Assembly: GCF_003940805.1 (NCBI RefSeq)
Contig: NZ_CP034328.1
Location: 4,125,113-4,189,112 of the forward strand
Source: Tabrizicola piscis
GTDB taxonomy: Bacteria > Pseudomonadota > Alphaproteobacteria > Rhodobacterales > Rhodobacteraceae
DNA: 64,000 bases
Reading direction: 5' to 3'
Numbering within the stretch: the first letter of the stretch is position 1; each line of letters begins with the position of its first letter. Shown here in pieces: positions 15,715-52,091 of this stretch. The translations under genes were made by a program, and so were the position numbers. The notes below the pieces were generated by a model. The model ran no database searches. It was not told where the DNA came from and saw nothing but the letters and a program-made list of their open reading frames with translations.

Positions 15715-16917
15715 ATGCAGGACACCGTCGCCCGCGCCGTCGAGGCCGTGCTGCGCGAGGACCGGGGGCGGCTTCTGGCCGCCCTCATGGCCCGGTTCCG
15801 CGATTTCCAGCTGGCCGAGGATGCGCTGCAAGACGCGGCGGCTTCGGCCTTGGTCCATTGGGGCCGCACTGGCCCGCCGCATTCGCCGCAGGGCTGGCTT
15901 TTGAAGGTGGCAGGGACCAAGGCGATCGACCGGCTGCGCCGCATGCGGCGCGAGGGCGACAAGGCTGCCGCAGCCGCCGTCCTGTCCGGCGATGAGGCCG
16001 AGGAAGACCCCGAGATGATCCCCGATCACGGCCTGCGCCTGATCTTCACCTGTTGCCATCCCGCGCTTGACCCCAAGTCGCGCGTGGCCCTGACACTGCG
16101 CACACTAGGTGGCCTTTCGACCGCCCAGATCGCCCGCGCCTTCCTTGATGCCGAACCCACGATGGGCCAACGCCTGTCTCGCGCCAAGGCCAAGATCGCC
16201 GCCGCCGGTATTCCCTTCAAACTGCCGGAAGCCGAAGACCTGCCCGACCGGCTGAATTCGGTCCTGACCGTGGTCTACCTGATCTTCAACGCAGGCTATA
16301 CCGCTGGCCCCGCGCAGGACCGCGACCTTTGTGACGAGGCGATCTGGCTGGCCCGGATGCTGTGCACACTGCAACCCGCTCAGGCCGAGGTGGAAGGCTG
16401 CCTTGCCCTCCTTCTTCTGACCCACGCCCGACGCGCAGCCCGGATAAGGGACGGGGAAACCGTGGCGCTGGCCGATCAGGACCGCAGTCTCTGGGACCAG
16501 CCGATGCTGGACGAGGGTCTTGCCACCCTTGACACCGCCCTGGCCCGACGCGCCCCGGGGCCGTTTCAGATCAAGGCGGCGATCGCCGCCTGTCAGGCGC
16601 AACAGCCCCCCAACTGGCCCCAGATCGCTGCCCTTTACGCAGGCCTTTACCGGTATGAGCCGACACCAATCATCCGCCTGAACCAGTCCGTGGCTCAGGC
16701 AGAGGCGGGCCACCTGCCAGCCGCCCTGACCGCGCTGGACGGCCTTGCCGAAGCCTTGGCTGACTACCAGCCCTATCACGCCGCCCGCGCCGAATACCTT
16801 GCCCGCGCCGGGCGCACCGCGGATGCGCTGGCGGCTTATGCCACTGCCATCACCCACGCCGCCTCACCTGCGGATGCGGCCTTCCTGACCCGCCGCCGCG
16901 ACCGGCTGCGATCATGA
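15715..16917 (+). CDS. ECF42-type RNA polymerase sigma factor
   Basis: 400-residue extracytoplasmic-function sigma factor. Sigma region 2 spans about residues 10-80 (FQLAEDALQDAAASALVHW, KAIDRLRRMRREGDKA), region 4 about 110-165 (TLRTLGGLSTAQIARAFLDAEPTMGQRLSRAK), and a long C-terminal extension of TPR-like helices fills about 185-400. That extension and the adjacent DGPF gene define ECF42. No anti-sigma factor is encoded beside it, as usual for this group. The stop overlaps the A-tract of a minus-strand terminator. Confidence 0.93.
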   Translation: MQDTVARAVEAVLREDRGRLLAALMARFRDFQLAEDALQDAAASALVHWGRTGPPHSPQGWLLKVAGTKAIDRLRRMRREGDKAAAAAVLSGDEAEEDPEMIPDHGLRLIFTCCHPALDPKSRVALTLRTLGGLSTAQIARAFLDAEPTMGQRLSRAKAKIAAAGIPFKLPEAEDLPDRLNSVLTVVYLIFNAGYTAGPAQDRDLCDEAIWLARMLCTLQPAQAEVEGCLALLLLTHARRAARIRDGETVALADQDRSLWDQPMLDEGLATLDTALARRAPGPFQIKAAIAACQAQQPPNWPQIAALYAGLYRYEPTPIIRLNQSVAQAEAGHLPAALTALDGLAEALADYQPYHAARAEYLARAGRTADALAAYATAITHAASPADAAFLTRRRDRLRS

Positions 16918-16944
16918 AAAAAAAGGCCGAGCTTCCGCTCGGCC
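16917..16944 (-). terminator. Intrinsic terminator of candidate RNA A
   Basis: Eight-base perfect GC-rich stem (16925-16932 and 16937-16944), loop of four, then eight Ts on the minus strand. It points toward the ECF42 gene's 3' end and so does not serve that gene. Confidence 0.85.
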
Positions 16945-16996
16945 AAGTCCAACAGGGAGGTATGAAGCAACGAGAGCAAAGTCATCGTTTCTTCAT
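16917..16996 (-). ncRNA. Candidate small RNA A (anti-Shine-Dalgarno type)
   Basis: Predicted 80-nt transcript. Upstream are TTGTTT (17030-17025), 17 bases and TATTTC (17007-17002). The RNA would open with a 12-bp hairpin with one mismatch (AUGAAGAAACGA / UCGUUGCUUCAU). Next comes the single-stranded CCUCCCUGUUGG (minus strand of 16949-16960), complementary to ribosome-binding sites, then the terminator stem GGCCGAGC/GCTCGGCC and eight Ts. No convincing open reading frame. Element B at 50366-50444 has the same design and element C can pair with it. Confidence 0.6.
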
Positions 16997-17122: not shown

Positions 17123-18028
17123 TCAGGCCGCCGCCTCATCCTGCTGGCGGCGGCGGTAGGCCATGATCTCCTCGGTCACGAAGTCGCGGAACGCCGCCAC
17201 CCGCTTGGAATGGCGCAACTCCTCGGGGTAGGCCAGAAACACCGGCACCTCAGCGCTTTGCACATCGGGCAAGACGCGGACAAGATTGGGGAAATCCTCG
17301 GTAAGATAGTCCGGCAGCACGCCCACGCCCAGATGGTTCAACACGGCCTGCAGCACGCCAAAGTAGTTGTTCACCGTCAGCGTCGACGGAATGTCATGCG
17401 ACATCAGGTCCTGCACCAGCACCGCCCCCGCCGCGACCTGAGGTGTCCCGGCATGCTGGCTGATCAGGCGATGCGCGCTCAGGTCGTCCAGCACCTCGGG
17501 CTTGCCATGCACGGCAATATATTCCGGCGTCGCGTAAAGCCGCATCTGGATGTTCATCAACCGCTTGCGGATCAGATCGGCCTGCGACGGCTCCTTCATC
17601 CGGATCGCCACATCCGCCTCCCGCATCGGCAGGTCCAGCACCCGTTCCTCCAGCATGAGGTCAATCTTCAGCGCCGGGTATTTCTCATACAACCGCGCCA
17701 GACGCGGGGCCAGCCACAGCGTCCCGAACCCCGTCGTCGTCGTCACCCGCAATTCGCCAAAGACCTCGTCCTCGGAATCCCGGATCCGCGCCGCCGTCGC
17801 ATCCAGCCGCTTGACCATGGCCTGCGTCGCGTCAAACAGCAGTTCCCCCTGTTCCGTCAGGATCAGCCCCCGCGCATGGCGATGAAACAGCGTGACCGCG
17901 AGGCTTTCCTCCAGCGCCCGGATCTGGCGGCTGACGGCCGATTGCGACAGGTGCAACACATCGCCGGCATGGGTCAGGCTGCCCTTCTCCGCCACCGCGT
18001 GAAAGATCCTCAGCTTGTCCCAATCCAT
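17123..18028 (-). CDS. LysR-family transcriptional regulator
   Basis: 301-residue LysR-type regulator. The DNA-binding helix-turn-helix is in residues 1-60 (LTHAGDVLHLSQSAVSRQIRALEES) and the effector domain spans about 92-295 (GFGTLWLAPRLARLYEKYP). The MDWDKLRIFHAVAEKGS opening supports the ATG at 18028; a further 22 in-frame residues upstream lack family resemblance. It is divergent from murI across about 190 bp. The target is unknown. Confidence 0.92.
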   Translation of the reverse strand: MDWDKLRIFHAVAEKGSLTHAGDVLHLSQSAVSRQIRALEESLAVTLFHRHARGLILTEQGELLFDATQAMVKRLDATAARIRDSEDEVFGELRVTTTTGFGTLWLAPRLARLYEKYPALKIDLMLEERVLDLPMREADVAIRMKEPSQADLIRKRLMNIQMRLYATPEYIAVHGKPEVLDDLSAHRLISQHAGTPQVAAGAVLVQDLMSHDIPSTLTVNNYFGVLQAVLNHLGVGVLPDYLTEDFPNLVRVLPDVQSAEVPVFLAYPEELRHSKRVAAFRDFVTEEIMAYRRRQQDEAAA

Positions 18029-49353: not shown

Positions 49354-50094
49354 TCAGTCGTTCGTGGCGGGCGCTTCTTCGGCAGGTGCTTCGGTCGCGG
49401 GCGCCTCGGTCGCCGGTTCAGCCGCGCGCGCTGCGGCGCTGGCAGCATCGGCGGCGGCGTTGGCGGCATCCACAGCCGCAAGCCCTGCGGTGAAGCCTTT
49501 CAGCGAGATCGGCAGTTCCACCCGGGCGTCGGGGGCGACGAAGGGGACGATGGTGATCTTGGCACCGGCGCCCTTTTTCAGCTGGGCCACTTCTTCCGCA
49601 GTGAAGCCAAGCCGGGCCACACAGCCGATCTGGGTGCAGAAGGTGAAGGGATAGGCCTTGGGAGCCGCCGCGTCGATCTGCAGCGTCATGCCTGCGGTCA
49701 GCAGCGTTTCAAGCGGGGCGATGAAGGTGGCACCGGCGGTGGCCGGGCCTTCGGTGCCTTCCGGCAGACCGAACATGGTGAATTCGGCGACGGCATTCCC
49801 CTGGTCGTCCTTCAGCAGCATGTAAAGCTGGCAAGGGTCGATCCCGGATTCGGTGCGCGCGCAGCGCTGTTCCCAGGCTTCGAAGTTGGCGGCGATATAG
49901 GTGTCGCCGATTTCATTGCCGGTTGACACCTCGGTGCCCATCGACAGCCCGTCCAGCGAGGCCCCATCGGCCGGGGCGGCTGTGCCCTCAGCTGCGGCGG
50001 GGGCATCGGCGGGGACGTCGGTCGTTTGCGCGAACAGGGGGCCTGCTGCCAAGGCAAGCATCAGGGCAAGTGCGGTGGTTTTGGTATTGGCCAT
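49354..50094 (-). CDS. Invasion-associated locus B (IalB) family protein
   Basis: 246-residue exported protein: signal peptide in residues 1-23 (ALALMLALAAGPLFAQ), an IalB domain at about 65-205 (FEAWEQRCARTESGIDPCQLYMLL with a cysteine pair, and FTFCTQIGCVARLGF) and a low-complexity Ala/Glu/Pro/Thr tail with repeated EAPATEAPA. The name comes from Bartonella; in free-living relatives the function is unknown. The start at 50094 gives a clean signal peptide. Confidence 0.88.
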   Translation of the reverse strand: MANTKTTALALMLALAAGPLFAQTTDVPADAPAAAEGTAAPADGASLDGLSMGTEVSTGNEIGDTYIAANFEAWEQRCARTESGIDPCQLYMLLKDDQGNAVAEFTMFGLPEGTEGPATAGATFIAPLETLLTAGMTLQIDAAAPKAYPFTFCTQIGCVARLGFTAEEVAQLKKGAGAKITIVPFVAPDARVELPISLKGFTAGLAAVDAANAAADAASAAARAAEPATEAPATEAPAEEAPATND

Positions 50095-50223: not shown

Positions 50224-50247
50224 AAAAAGGGCCGGTCAGACCGGCCC
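50224..50247 (-). terminator. Intrinsic terminator of candidate RNA C
   Basis: Stem of eight (50229-50236 and 50240-50247), loop CAG, then five Ts on the minus strand (50224-50228). No protein gene on the minus strand ends near it, which is the reason to look for an RNA gene. Confidence 0.85.
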
Positions 50248-50293
50248 CTTCCGAATTTTGTTTTTTGCTCCCTGTCGGACTGGCCGACTTCAT
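50226..50293 (-). ncRNA. Candidate small RNA C (antisense to RNAs A and B)
   Basis: Predicted 68-nt transcript beginning AUGAAG, with hairpin GUCGG-CCAGU-CCGAC, then AGGGAG, an A-rich unpaired stretch and a terminator (stem GGGCCGGT/ACCGGCCC, TTTTT). The segment GGCCAGUCCGACAGGGAG (minus strand of 50285-50268) can pair with RNA B over 17 bp with one bulge, and with RNA A over 18 pairs with one bulge. A promoter-like pair precedes it at 50302-50330. Confidence 0.6.
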
Positions 50294-50301
50294 GGGAAGG
50301 G

Positions 50302-50330
50302 ACGCTACGGTGGATTGAAGGGGCCGTCAA
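50302..50330 (-). promoter_or_regulatory. Promoter-like pair for RNA C
   Basis: TTGACG (50330-50325), 17 bases, TAGCGT (50307-50302) on the minus strand; the start would be at about 50293. Five of six bases match the housekeeping -35 consensus; the -10 is weaker. Confidence 0.5.
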
Positions 50331-50365
50331 CGGGATTCTGCATGGGCAGGGCCCAGCTTTGCCGC

Positions 50366-50394
50366 AAAAAAACCGCGCCTTTTCAAGGGCGCGG
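50366..50394 (-). terminator. Intrinsic terminator of candidate RNA B
   Basis: Stem CCGCGCC (50373-50379) / GGCGCGG (50388-50394) followed on the minus strand by seven Ts (50366-50372). No minus-strand protein gene ends here. Confidence 0.85.
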
Positions 50395-50444
50395 CCAGTC
50401 GACAGGGAGGAAGTCACCCCCAGGCCAAAGCCGAACCCTGACCT
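50366..50444 (-). ncRNA. Candidate small RNA B (anti-Shine-Dalgarno type)
   Basis: Predicted 79-nt transcript with the same order as RNA A: a 5' hairpin closed by AGGUCA/UGACUU (50444-50439 with 50416-50411), the unpaired CCUCCCUGUCGACUGG (50410-50395) and a terminator stem CCGCGCC/GGCGCGG with seven Ts. Upstream TTGTTA (50477-50472) is placed like the -35 of RNA A, but the -10 is poor. It lies 72 bp from RNA C on the same strand. Confidence 0.58.
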
Positions 50445-50549
50445 GAGACGATCAGACTGGCAGAAAGGGGTTAACAATGTATTTTGGCAGCACACGTCAT
50501 TTCGGCGGGCCTGCGTCAGCGGGCTCGCCTCAGGGTTGCAGGGTGGAAC

Positions 50550-52091
50550 ATGGTGGACGAAACAAGGCCGGCAGACAGCATCTTCATCGGTGGCGGCGGT
50601 GAGGGGTATGGACTGCCGCAAAGCCTGCTCTTGAAGTACGGCAACCGGCACGGGCTGATCGCCGGGGCCACCGGCACCGGCAAGACCGTGACGCTGCAGA
50701 TCCTGGCCGAGGGCTTTTCGGCGGCCGGGGTGCCGGTCTTCCTGTCGGATGTGAAGGGCGATCTGTCGGGCATCGCGGCTGCCGGGTCGGCGGAGGGCAA
50801 GCTGCATGACGCCTTCACCAAGCGCAGCCAGACGATCGGGCTGGACCTGCAGTATCGCGCCTTTCCGGTGATCTTCTGGGACCTGTTTGGCGAAAAGGGC
50901 CACCCGGTCCGCGCCACGGTGGCCGAGATGGGGCCGCTGCTGCTGTCGCGGCTGCTGGAACTGTCCGAGGCGCAGGAGGGTGTGCTCAACGTTGCGTTCC
51001 GGCTGTCGGACGAAGAGGAGTTGCCGCTTCTGGACCTCAAGGACCTGCAGGCGCTGCTGACCTTTGTCGCCGAACATGCGGATGAGATGTCGGCGCGCTA
51101 TGGTCTGGTGTCGAAGGAAAGCGTCGGTGCCATCCAGCGGCGGCTGCTGGTGCTGGAAAACCAGGGGGGCGCGCGCCTGTTTGGCGAACCTGCGCTTGAT
51201 CTGGCCGACCTGATGACCGTGGACGCAAACGGCCAGGGCCGGATCAGTCTTCTGGCGGCGGACAAGCTGATGAATTCGCCCCGGCTTTATGCGACCTTCC
51301 TGCTCTGGCTCTTGTCAGAGCTGTTCGAGATGCTGCCCGAGGTGGGCGATCCGGACAAACCAAAGCTCGTGTTCTTTTTCGATGAAGCGCATCTGTTGTT
51401 CGACGATGCCCCGAAGGCGCTGGTGTCGAAGGTGGAACAGGTGGCGCGGCTGATCCGGTCCAAGGGGGTGGGGGTGTATTTCATCACCCAGAACCCGGCG
51501 GACGTGCCGGAGAACATCCTTGGCCAGCTTGGCAACCGGGTCCAGCACGCGCTGCGGGCCTTTACCGCCAAGGACCAGAAGGACCTTGCCAAGGCGGCCG
51601 AGACCTACCGCCCCAACCCGCGCTTCAAGATCGACGAGGCGATCCGTGATGTCGGGACCGGTGAGGCGGTCACCTCGCTGCTTGAGGCGAAGGGGATTCC
51701 CGGCGTGGCCGAGCGCACGCTGATCCGCCCGCCGTCAAGCCAGCTTGGGCCGCTGGACGATGCCGCGCGGGCGGCGGTAATGGCGGCCTCACCGGTTGCG
51801 GGCAAGTATGATGTGGCGGTGGACCGTGACAGCGCGTGGGAACGGCTGCGGGCGCGGGCCGACAAGGCGGCACAGGCCGCCGCAGAGACCGAGGCCCGCG
51901 AAACCGAAGCGCGGGAGTTCGAGAAGGCCCGCCGTTATGACGGCAAGACCGAGGCCGCGCCGAAGAAATCCGCCAGCCGGTCGGACAGCATTGGCACGGC
52001 CTTTGCCAAAAGCTTTGCGCGCCAGTTGGGCACGAAGTCGGGGCAGGCAATCATTCGTGGCGTGCTGGGGTCGATCTTCGGCAAGCGCTGA
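50550..52091 (+). CDS. HerA-like ATPase (DUF853 family)
   Basis: 513-residue P-loop ATPase. Walker A is GATGTGKTVTLQ (about residue 40), Walker B LVFFFDEAHLLFDDAPK (about 275) and a sensor region GVGVYFITQNPADVPENILGQL follows. The C-terminal third is charged helix (about 430-480) ending in a small Ser/Lys-rich region. DUF853 proteins resemble HerA/FtsK translocases but their role is not established. No nurA or defence partner is adjacent. Start at 50550 follows GGGTGGAAC. Confidence 0.9.
   Translation: MVDETRPADSIFIGGGGEGYGLPQSLLLKYGNRHGLIAGATGTGKTVTLQILAEGFSAAGVPVFLSDVKGDLSGIAAAGSAEGKLHDAFTKRSQTIGLDLQYRAFPVIFWDLFGEKGHPVRATVAEMGPLLLSRLLELSEAQEGVLNVAFRLSDEEELPLLDLKDLQALLTFVAEHADEMSARYGLVSKESVGAIQRRLLVLENQGGARLFGEPALDLADLMTVDANGQGRISLLAADKLMNSPRLYATFLLWLLSELFEMLPEVGDPDKPKLVFFFDEAHLLFDDAPKALVSKVEQVARLIRSKGVGVYFITQNPADVPENILGQLGNRVQHALRAFTAKDQKDLAKAAETYRPNPRFKIDEAIRDVGTGEAVTSLLEAKGIPGVAERTLIRPPSSQLGPLDDAARAAVMAASPVAGKYDVAVDRDSAWERLRARADKAAQAAAETEARETEAREFEKARRYDGKTEAAPKKSASRSDSIGTAFAKSFARQLGTKSGQAIIRGVLGSIFGKR

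Follow-up and report, generated by a model that had tools for sequence, protein, structure and literature searches.

A nearly invariant Rhodobacteraceae RNA complementary to the seeds of SorX, SorY and a third sibling: a candidate sponge of anti-Shine-Dalgarno sRNAs

SorX and SorY are established oxidative-stress sRNAs, whose published targets, potA and takP, respectively, fit a trans-acting role. According to the accessible parts of the cited reports, both co-precipitate with Hfq in R. sphaeroides (PMC5036791) and are controlled by stress sigma factors (PMC8307010). The accessible literature on Rhodobacter sRNAs and sponges mentions neither a mechanism switching SorX or SorY off nor a sponge of either. 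The closest described system, as far as the available part of the source goes, is CrfA of Caulobacter crescentus, which sponges the alpha-r8 sRNAs SisA-D via UUUCCUCCCU with Hfq (PMC12559287). A pairing between two sRNAs is also described, in the part available, for R. sphaeroides, where StsR targets the leader fragment UpsM (PMC8307010).

Here we analyze a 64,000-nucleotide stretch of the Tabrizicola piscis genome (the window), which contains an ortholog of SorY (RNA A), a further sibling (RNA B), and an RNA complementary to the seeds of both (RNA C). If the sponge role considered below is true, this RNA, complementary to the siblings and hardly changed across most of the family, would be an off-switch for SorX and SorY, the published RNA UdsE would acquire a function, and C would join CrfA as a second sponge of anti-Shine-Dalgarno siblings in the Alphaproteobacteria.

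Layout of the locus and identity of the RNAs

The main features are as follows (window positions, unless a genome position is given).

50224..50297, minus strand: RNA C, match to the C covariance model (genome 4175336-4175409); likely transcript from about 50296 to 50226
50302..50330, minus strand: candidate promoter of C by sequence, TTGACG (50330-50325), 17-nt spacer, TAGCGT (50307-50302)
50274..50288, minus strand: 5' hairpin of C, GUCGG-CCAGU-CCGAC, by RNA folding
50268..50285, minus strand: pairing core of C, GGCCAGUCCGACAGGGAG, complement of the A, B and SorX seeds
50224..50248, minus strand: predicted intrinsic terminator of C by sequence and fold, a GC stem followed by a U-run
50366..50444, minus strand: RNA B, with 5' hairpin, CCUCCCUG seed and terminator; probable third SorX/SorY-like sibling
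50393..50409, minus strand: seed of B, CUCCCUGUCGACUGGCC, by whole-genome motif search (genome 4175505-4175521)
16917..16996, minus strand: RNA A, ortholog of SorY judging by the SorY/SorX model scores and the LysR neighbour
16941..16959, minus strand: seed of A, CUCCCUGUUGGACUUGGCC, by whole-genome motif search (genome 4142053-4142071)
49354..50094, minus strand: gene of an IalB-family protein, downstream of C (Pfam IalB, 123.3 bits)
50550..52091, plus strand: gene of a HerA-like ATPase, divergent from B (Pfam HerA_C, 723.4 bits)
17123..18025, minus strand: gene of a LysR-type regulator, upstream of A (Pfam); neighbour common with R. sphaeroides SorY
Genome 1981844-1981918, outside the window: SorX of the same genome, 75.1 bits; seed common with A and B

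The minus-strand RNAs A, B, and C each terminate in a GC stem followed by a U-run, and the three terminated elements proposed by the first-pass annotation are indeed present where it had placed them. For C, the end at 50226 was kept, but the start is probably near 50296, judging by the promoter position, rather than at 50293. The layout of 5' hairpin, seed, and terminator ascribed to A and B was recovered in both; the seed of B, however, is not fully unpaired, as in the minimum-energy fold part of its CCUCCC pairs with GGGGG. The label "antisense" is correct for the seeds but not as a relation of loci, C not being encoded opposite A or B. Upstream of B (50450-50483), the block ATACA..TTAACC..TGCCAG is conserved across genera, and a similar block occurs in R. 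sphaeroides, where the HerA-like gene does not adjoin B. The block may be the promoter of B or of the divergent gene.

RNA A matches the Rfam SorY model (RF02651) with 48.5 bits (E 2.1e-9), below the gathering score of 111; this cut-off is species-narrow, since it is reached in only one of the 295 family genomes, that of R. sphaeroides. The match of A to the SorX model (RF02784; 43.6-43.7 bits, E 5.1e-10) is also below the gathering score, 46.6. The LysR gene lying just upstream of A is 83% identical in R. sphaeroides, and such a neighbour was found in 28 of the 30 best-scoring SorY loci of the family search. The position behind the LysR gene of R. sphaeroides SorY, taken with the SorY sequence match, identifies A as an ortholog of this oxidative-stress sRNA, that is, as an already known RNA. 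SorX of the same genome scores above its Rfam cut-off and adjoins an apparent response-regulator reading frame; by its seed it is one of the predicted partners of C.

RNA B is best called a third, weaker sibling. Its match to SorX in the window (17.5 bits, E 0.027) is below the gathering score, while the B RNAs beside C in other genera score 30.9-43.9 bits in five of seven loci scanned, the two others (L058 and L137) having no SorX match at E<=0.001. B shares the seed, the 5' hairpin and the terminator layout with SorX and SorY; however, SorX is situated downstream of ompR-1 and SorY downstream of the LysR gene, whereas B is found beside C. Multiple SorX-like matches occur in two genomes: G300 has five, including four on contig C6, one of which adjoins C, and G032 has two in tandem (C9:60608-60866). 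Thus the sibling family expands in some genera. C itself is the complement of SorX and SorY and not a member of their family. Its reading on the plus strand as a further sibling was rejected, the conserved promoter and the U-run terminator being on the minus strand.

Other families were not recovered. With the alpha-r8/mmgR model (RF00519, gathering score 41), A and B score 22.7 and 17.2 bits, respectively, and the best match in the genome (27.0 bits) is located elsewhere. The earlier link of A and B to the CcsR RNAs was unsupported: A is an apparent SorY ortholog, the partner set includes SorX, and cmscan of the two regions against Rfam, where the presence of a CcsR model is presumed rather than confirmed, listed no CcsR family. 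CcsR RNAs are homologous RNAs cotranscribed with ccaF1; the neighbours recognized here by Pfam encode a LysR regulator, an ECF-type sigma factor, a HerA-like ATPase, and IalB. The anti-Shine-Dalgarno type of the A and B seeds, on the other hand, was supported, and A and B may, as first proposed, block ribosome-binding sites. Identification of C with a known Rfam family was rejected: its best match has 18.9 bits against a cut-off of 50, and only a tRNA reached a gathering score in the window. Overall, A is a known RNA, B is a sibling of known RNAs, and C is a conserved sRNA below every Rfam cut-off.

Complementarity of C with the siblings

The seed regions are CCUCCCUGUUGGACUUGGCC in A and CCUCCCUGUCGACUGGCC in B, and the core of C is GGCCAGUCCGACAGGGAG. 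Both pairings described by the first-pass annotation were reproduced: C and B form 8+9 base pairs with one bulged C, located in C, and C and A form 18 pairs including one G-U, with one bulged U, located in A. More generally, SorX and SorY pair with C over 13-14 contiguous pairs including one G-U, or over 18 with a bulge, and the pairing of B with C spans 17-18 positions, interrupted by a bulge or mismatch. The SorY seed CTCCCTGTTGGACT, whose pairing with C is contiguous over 14 positions and includes one G-U, is invariant in all 66 readable loci (70 were taken, the 30 best-scoring and 40 chosen).

The strongest test against chance pairing is the rarity of the motif in the whole genome. In 4.39 Mb, the pattern CTCCCTGN{0,6}GACN{0,2}TGGCC has four sites, one in each sibling (SorX, A and B) and the fourth in the complement of C, and the reversed pattern, used as a control, has none. 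Hybridization energies, a check suggested at the outset, point the same way. The cofold binding energies are -15.6 kcal/mol for C-A, -12.8 kcal/mol for C-B, and -13.3 kcal/mol for C-SorX, the control cofolds A-B and A-SorX giving -3.2 and -1.9 kcal/mol. Among 150 dinucleotide shuffles of C, 0, 5 and 3 were as good with A, B and SorX, respectively; for 150 shuffles of the partner, the numbers are 2, 1 and 3. In R. sphaeroides the binding is -19.0 kcal/mol for C-SorY and -19.2 kcal/mol for C-SorX, with none of 150 shuffles of C as good, and -16.4 kcal/mol for C-B, a value that 15 of the 150 shuffled B sequences and one of the 150 shuffled C sequences also attained. Raw duplex energy, computed without folding, tells less than the cofold, and B does not stand out by it: among 6394 window tiles, 31 equal B in binding to the C core and eight equal A, among the latter tiles over the complement of C and over A itself. 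The plus-strand segment 27481-27560 has a raw duplex energy to the C core of -43.8, compared with -44.0 for the best tile of A. The complementarity of C to the siblings is real and beyond chance.

The reading that we favour, and hold to be reasonably likely, makes C an sRNA of some 70 nt, transcribed on its own, whose role is that of a decoy, or sponge, of the siblings SorX, SorY (A), and B. The best explanation of its action, by analogy, would be that of a CrfA-type sponge on SisA-D. C is complementary to the common seed of several sibling sRNAs, and, as far as the accessible part of the CrfA report allows the comparison, both RNAs have a G/A-rich stretch pairing with a common CCUCCCU seed of sibling anti-Shine-Dalgarno sRNAs. 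In C, unlike in CrfA as described there, the pairing is longer and runs through a 5' hairpin, and C adjoins one of the siblings; the action of CrfA is proven in that report, whereas that of C is deduced from sequence. The likeness to CrfA is one of proposed action, the C model itself being found solely in the family of the window among 190 genomes of the class.

We suggest the following course of events. The AGGGAG of C would meet the CUCCCU of a sibling, and the pairing would then zip onward into the 5' hairpin of C, the 3' arm of which extends the complementarity. The anti-Shine-Dalgarno seed of the sibling would be masked, so that the sibling would be withheld from its mRNAs and would probably decay together with C, the process most likely taking place on Hfq. 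The sponge action and its direction, the Hfq dependence and the transcription of C in Tabrizicola piscis are all predictions. The first-pass reading of C as a sponge of A and B is supported as likely: the complementarity is exact, while the sponging itself we infer.

Conservation of C and its R. sphaeroides counterpart

A covariance search across the family, also suggested as a check, found both sides of the proposed interaction. The SorY model matches 273 of the 295 Rhodobacteraceae genomes at E<=1e-4, and the C model (R1, built from 24 sequences) matches 260 at E<=0.01, of which 13 are weaker than 1e-3, leaving 247 at E<=1e-3; the stricter filters of this family search lose weak matches. Across the class, the C model was found in three of 190 genomes at E<=1e-4, including that of the window, and all three belong to its family. 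The exact C core occurs in at least 120 GTDB stretches; the 80 matches listed from these comprise 77 that are rhodobacterial by title, two with vague MAG titles, and one labelled Maritalea. With cruder patterns, the promoter and B were each found in 66 of these 80 loci.

We compared 134 C loci, leaving out one (L066), where the stretch ends before C. The core pattern is present in 128 of them. Of the six others, five deviate only at the final two positions of AGGGAG, and the sixth (L111) has GCCGG/CCGGC instead of GUCGG/CCGAC, a two-sided change preserving the 5' hairpin. This case came from outside the set of 24 C sequences, in whose consensus fold no two-sided change was found. Since the pattern fixes most letters of the core, tallies within the 128 loci are partly built in. 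At the free positions of 127 equal-length sequences we observed A 110, G 13, C 3 and T 1 (in the loop); A 122 and G 5; and A 82 and G 45. These are almost exclusively purines, as would follow from a need to preserve pairing with U.

A promoter of the form TTGAC..TA[GA].. precedes C in 117 of 128 loci, with a spacer of 17 in 116 and of 18 in one. The 12 nucleotides following the core are 60% A, compared with a background of 19% across the loci; an A-rich linker is typical of Hfq-binding sRNAs. The core is the invariant part of C, while the linker and terminator sequences vary. C has the appearance of a distinct sRNA, with a promoter and a terminator of its own. No counterpart of C was recognized among the sRNAs of Ruegeria pomeroyi and Paracoccus denitrificans in the accessible parts of the published accounts.

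The Shine-Dalgarno-like AGGGAG and, in the genus of the window, an ATG ahead of the core could alternatively mark C as the beginning of a short reading frame or a leader peptide rather than an RNA regulator. We regard this as very improbable: the ATG is absent in many genera, the linker length shifts by non-multiples of three, and the core bases are fixed at every codon position, though the pattern itself fixes most of the letters.

The neighbourhood of C is conserved as well. The HerA-like gene lies upstream in 120 of 128 loci and IalB downstream in 118, its start being at a median of 181 nt after the core. Both genes flank the C/B pair in 113 loci, HerA alone in seven, IalB alone in five and neither in three, some of the stretches being short. 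B was located upstream of C by script in 111 of 128 loci (median distance 124 nt) and by inspection in four more (G122, G119, G317, and G213); it is decayed in one (G004) and missing in 12.

In R. sphaeroides, C occupies 1,426,533-1,426,603 and the core of B 1,426,704-1,426,723. The pair is flanked by a catalase gene and by an IalB-like frame (tblastn match and position), to which a domain search assigned no family. In the R. sphaeroides locus L137 (C4:1417000-1436500), the HerA-like ATPase beside the B-C pair is replaced by the catalase gene and a LysR-type gene, which we take to be oxyR, and thus the pair lies at an oxidative-stress locus. The SorY match of genome G122 is at 1,632,645, next to the published R. 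sphaeroides SorY start at 1,632,642 in the available part of the source (PMC6238624); G122, to which the above positions of C and B refer, is therefore R. sphaeroides 2.4.1 or a strain sharing its coordinates.

The accessible parts of the literature give katE as RSP_2779 (PMC3413700) and describe RSs2778, renamed UdsE, as a "5'-UTR" sRNA born at a transcription start site with involvement of RNase E and PNPase (PMC8625941). As the UdsE numbering adjoins katE, where C and B are situated, the R. sphaeroides C locus is most likely that of RSs2778/UdsE. Both C and UdsE are short RNAs with their own start site at a locus next to katE; the identity of UdsE with C, rather than possibly with B, is deduced from the locus numbering. 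C has therefore probably been sequenced before in R. sphaeroides, with no function assigned: the published literature, as far as accessible, gives no function, target, or sponge role of UdsE. In the available part of the report, heat shock reduced all Uds RNAs save UdsD and UdsH (PMC8625941), which is compatible with a behaviour opposite to that of SorX and SorY under their stress sigma factors. An identification of C with StsR (RSs0827) seems improbable, as the locus number, from which its position was deduced, suggests that StsR lies near RSP_0847/SorX at 2.60 Mb and not at 1.43 Mb.

The position of C before ialB and the UdsE data bear on another reading, namely that the primary role of C is that of a terminated leader (5'-UTR attenuator) for ialB, whose read-through or decay is altered by SorX, SorY, and B. 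In that case the siblings would act on C as their target instead of being sponged by it, and both roles may coexist. The IalB gene downstream in most loci at a short median distance is consistent with such a leader, as is the classification of UdsE, the likely counterpart, as 5'-UTR-derived with cotranscripts verified by RT-PCR, in the accessible part of the report (PMC8625941). The pair UpsM/StsR, as described in the part available (PMC8307010), offers a precedent: there the sRNA StsR pairs with UpsM, itself an sRNA and a fragment of a leader, and C may be such a fragment too. Against the leader reading, invariance is confined to the pairing core of C, the linker and terminator sequences being variable; 10 of 128 loci have no IalB downstream (some stretches being short), and the core does not overlap the terminator stem. 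We therefore rate the leader reading as unlikely, well behind the decoy. Equally doubtful is a combination of the two, a built-in timer, in which B and C are expressed from adjacent promoters, C is also the terminated leader of the envelope gene ialB, and transcription towards ialB would release the decoy silencing SorX, SorY, and B in most Rhodobacteraceae genera.

Coevolution and co-occurrence with SorX, SorY and B

Direct signs of coevolution are sparse. In genome G044 the C core has GGCAAGU, and both B and SorX have ACUUGCC, which is a concerted change. Its B core is one of the 13 among 112 that have no CTGGCC, and C is unchanged in most of the others. In G032 a SorX with ACUUGCC coexists with an ordinary, non-matching C. 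The advantage of matched over permuted pairs is only 0.08 kcal/mol, both for C-B (111 genomes, p 0.02) and for C-SorY (51 genomes, p 0.019), with kinship ignored. The covariation is faint because the SorY seed is identical in all readable loci and the C core hardly varies. The first-pass annotation had named conservation of the siblings with no co-varying complementarity in C as the observation that would speak against its proposal; conserved complementarity is clearly present, but with covariation of only 0.08 kcal/mol (p ~0.02) this objection is half answered.

The presence/absence pattern says more than the permuted energies. Twenty of the 22 SorY-less genomes are listed, and 11 of these also have no SorX at E<=1e-3; C is absent from all 11 at E<=1e-3. 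Thus C is missing where both SorX and SorY are missing, although descent may confound this. In the nine other listed SorY-less genomes, which have a SorX-like RNA, C was found in two. Conversely, 10 SorY-bearing genomes from the 35 genomes that have no C were searched again and C was still absent, so SorY works without C there. Finally, in all 12 genomes with no B beside C, both C and SorY are retained, and therefore SorX and SorY look like the main partners of C, with B secondary.

These observations also bear on the origin of the match. The reverse complement of the C core resembles the B core, which makes an inverted duplication a plausible origin; C might then act in trans on mRNAs or ribosomes via its Shine-Dalgarno-like AGGGAG, its match to the siblings reflecting shared ancestry, for example as an inverted copy of B. 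This seems improbable, more so than the leader reading, as the complementarity is kept family-wide although B was lost in 12 of 128 loci, and as C is absent from every listed genome with neither SorX nor SorY, a pattern that descent may confound.

A hairpin with GUCGGCCAGUCCGACAG and no AGGGAG tail was observed in genome G060 (C29:25090-25146, L251; C model E 0.0066), which has neither SorX nor SorY, and is either a chance match or a remnant of C.
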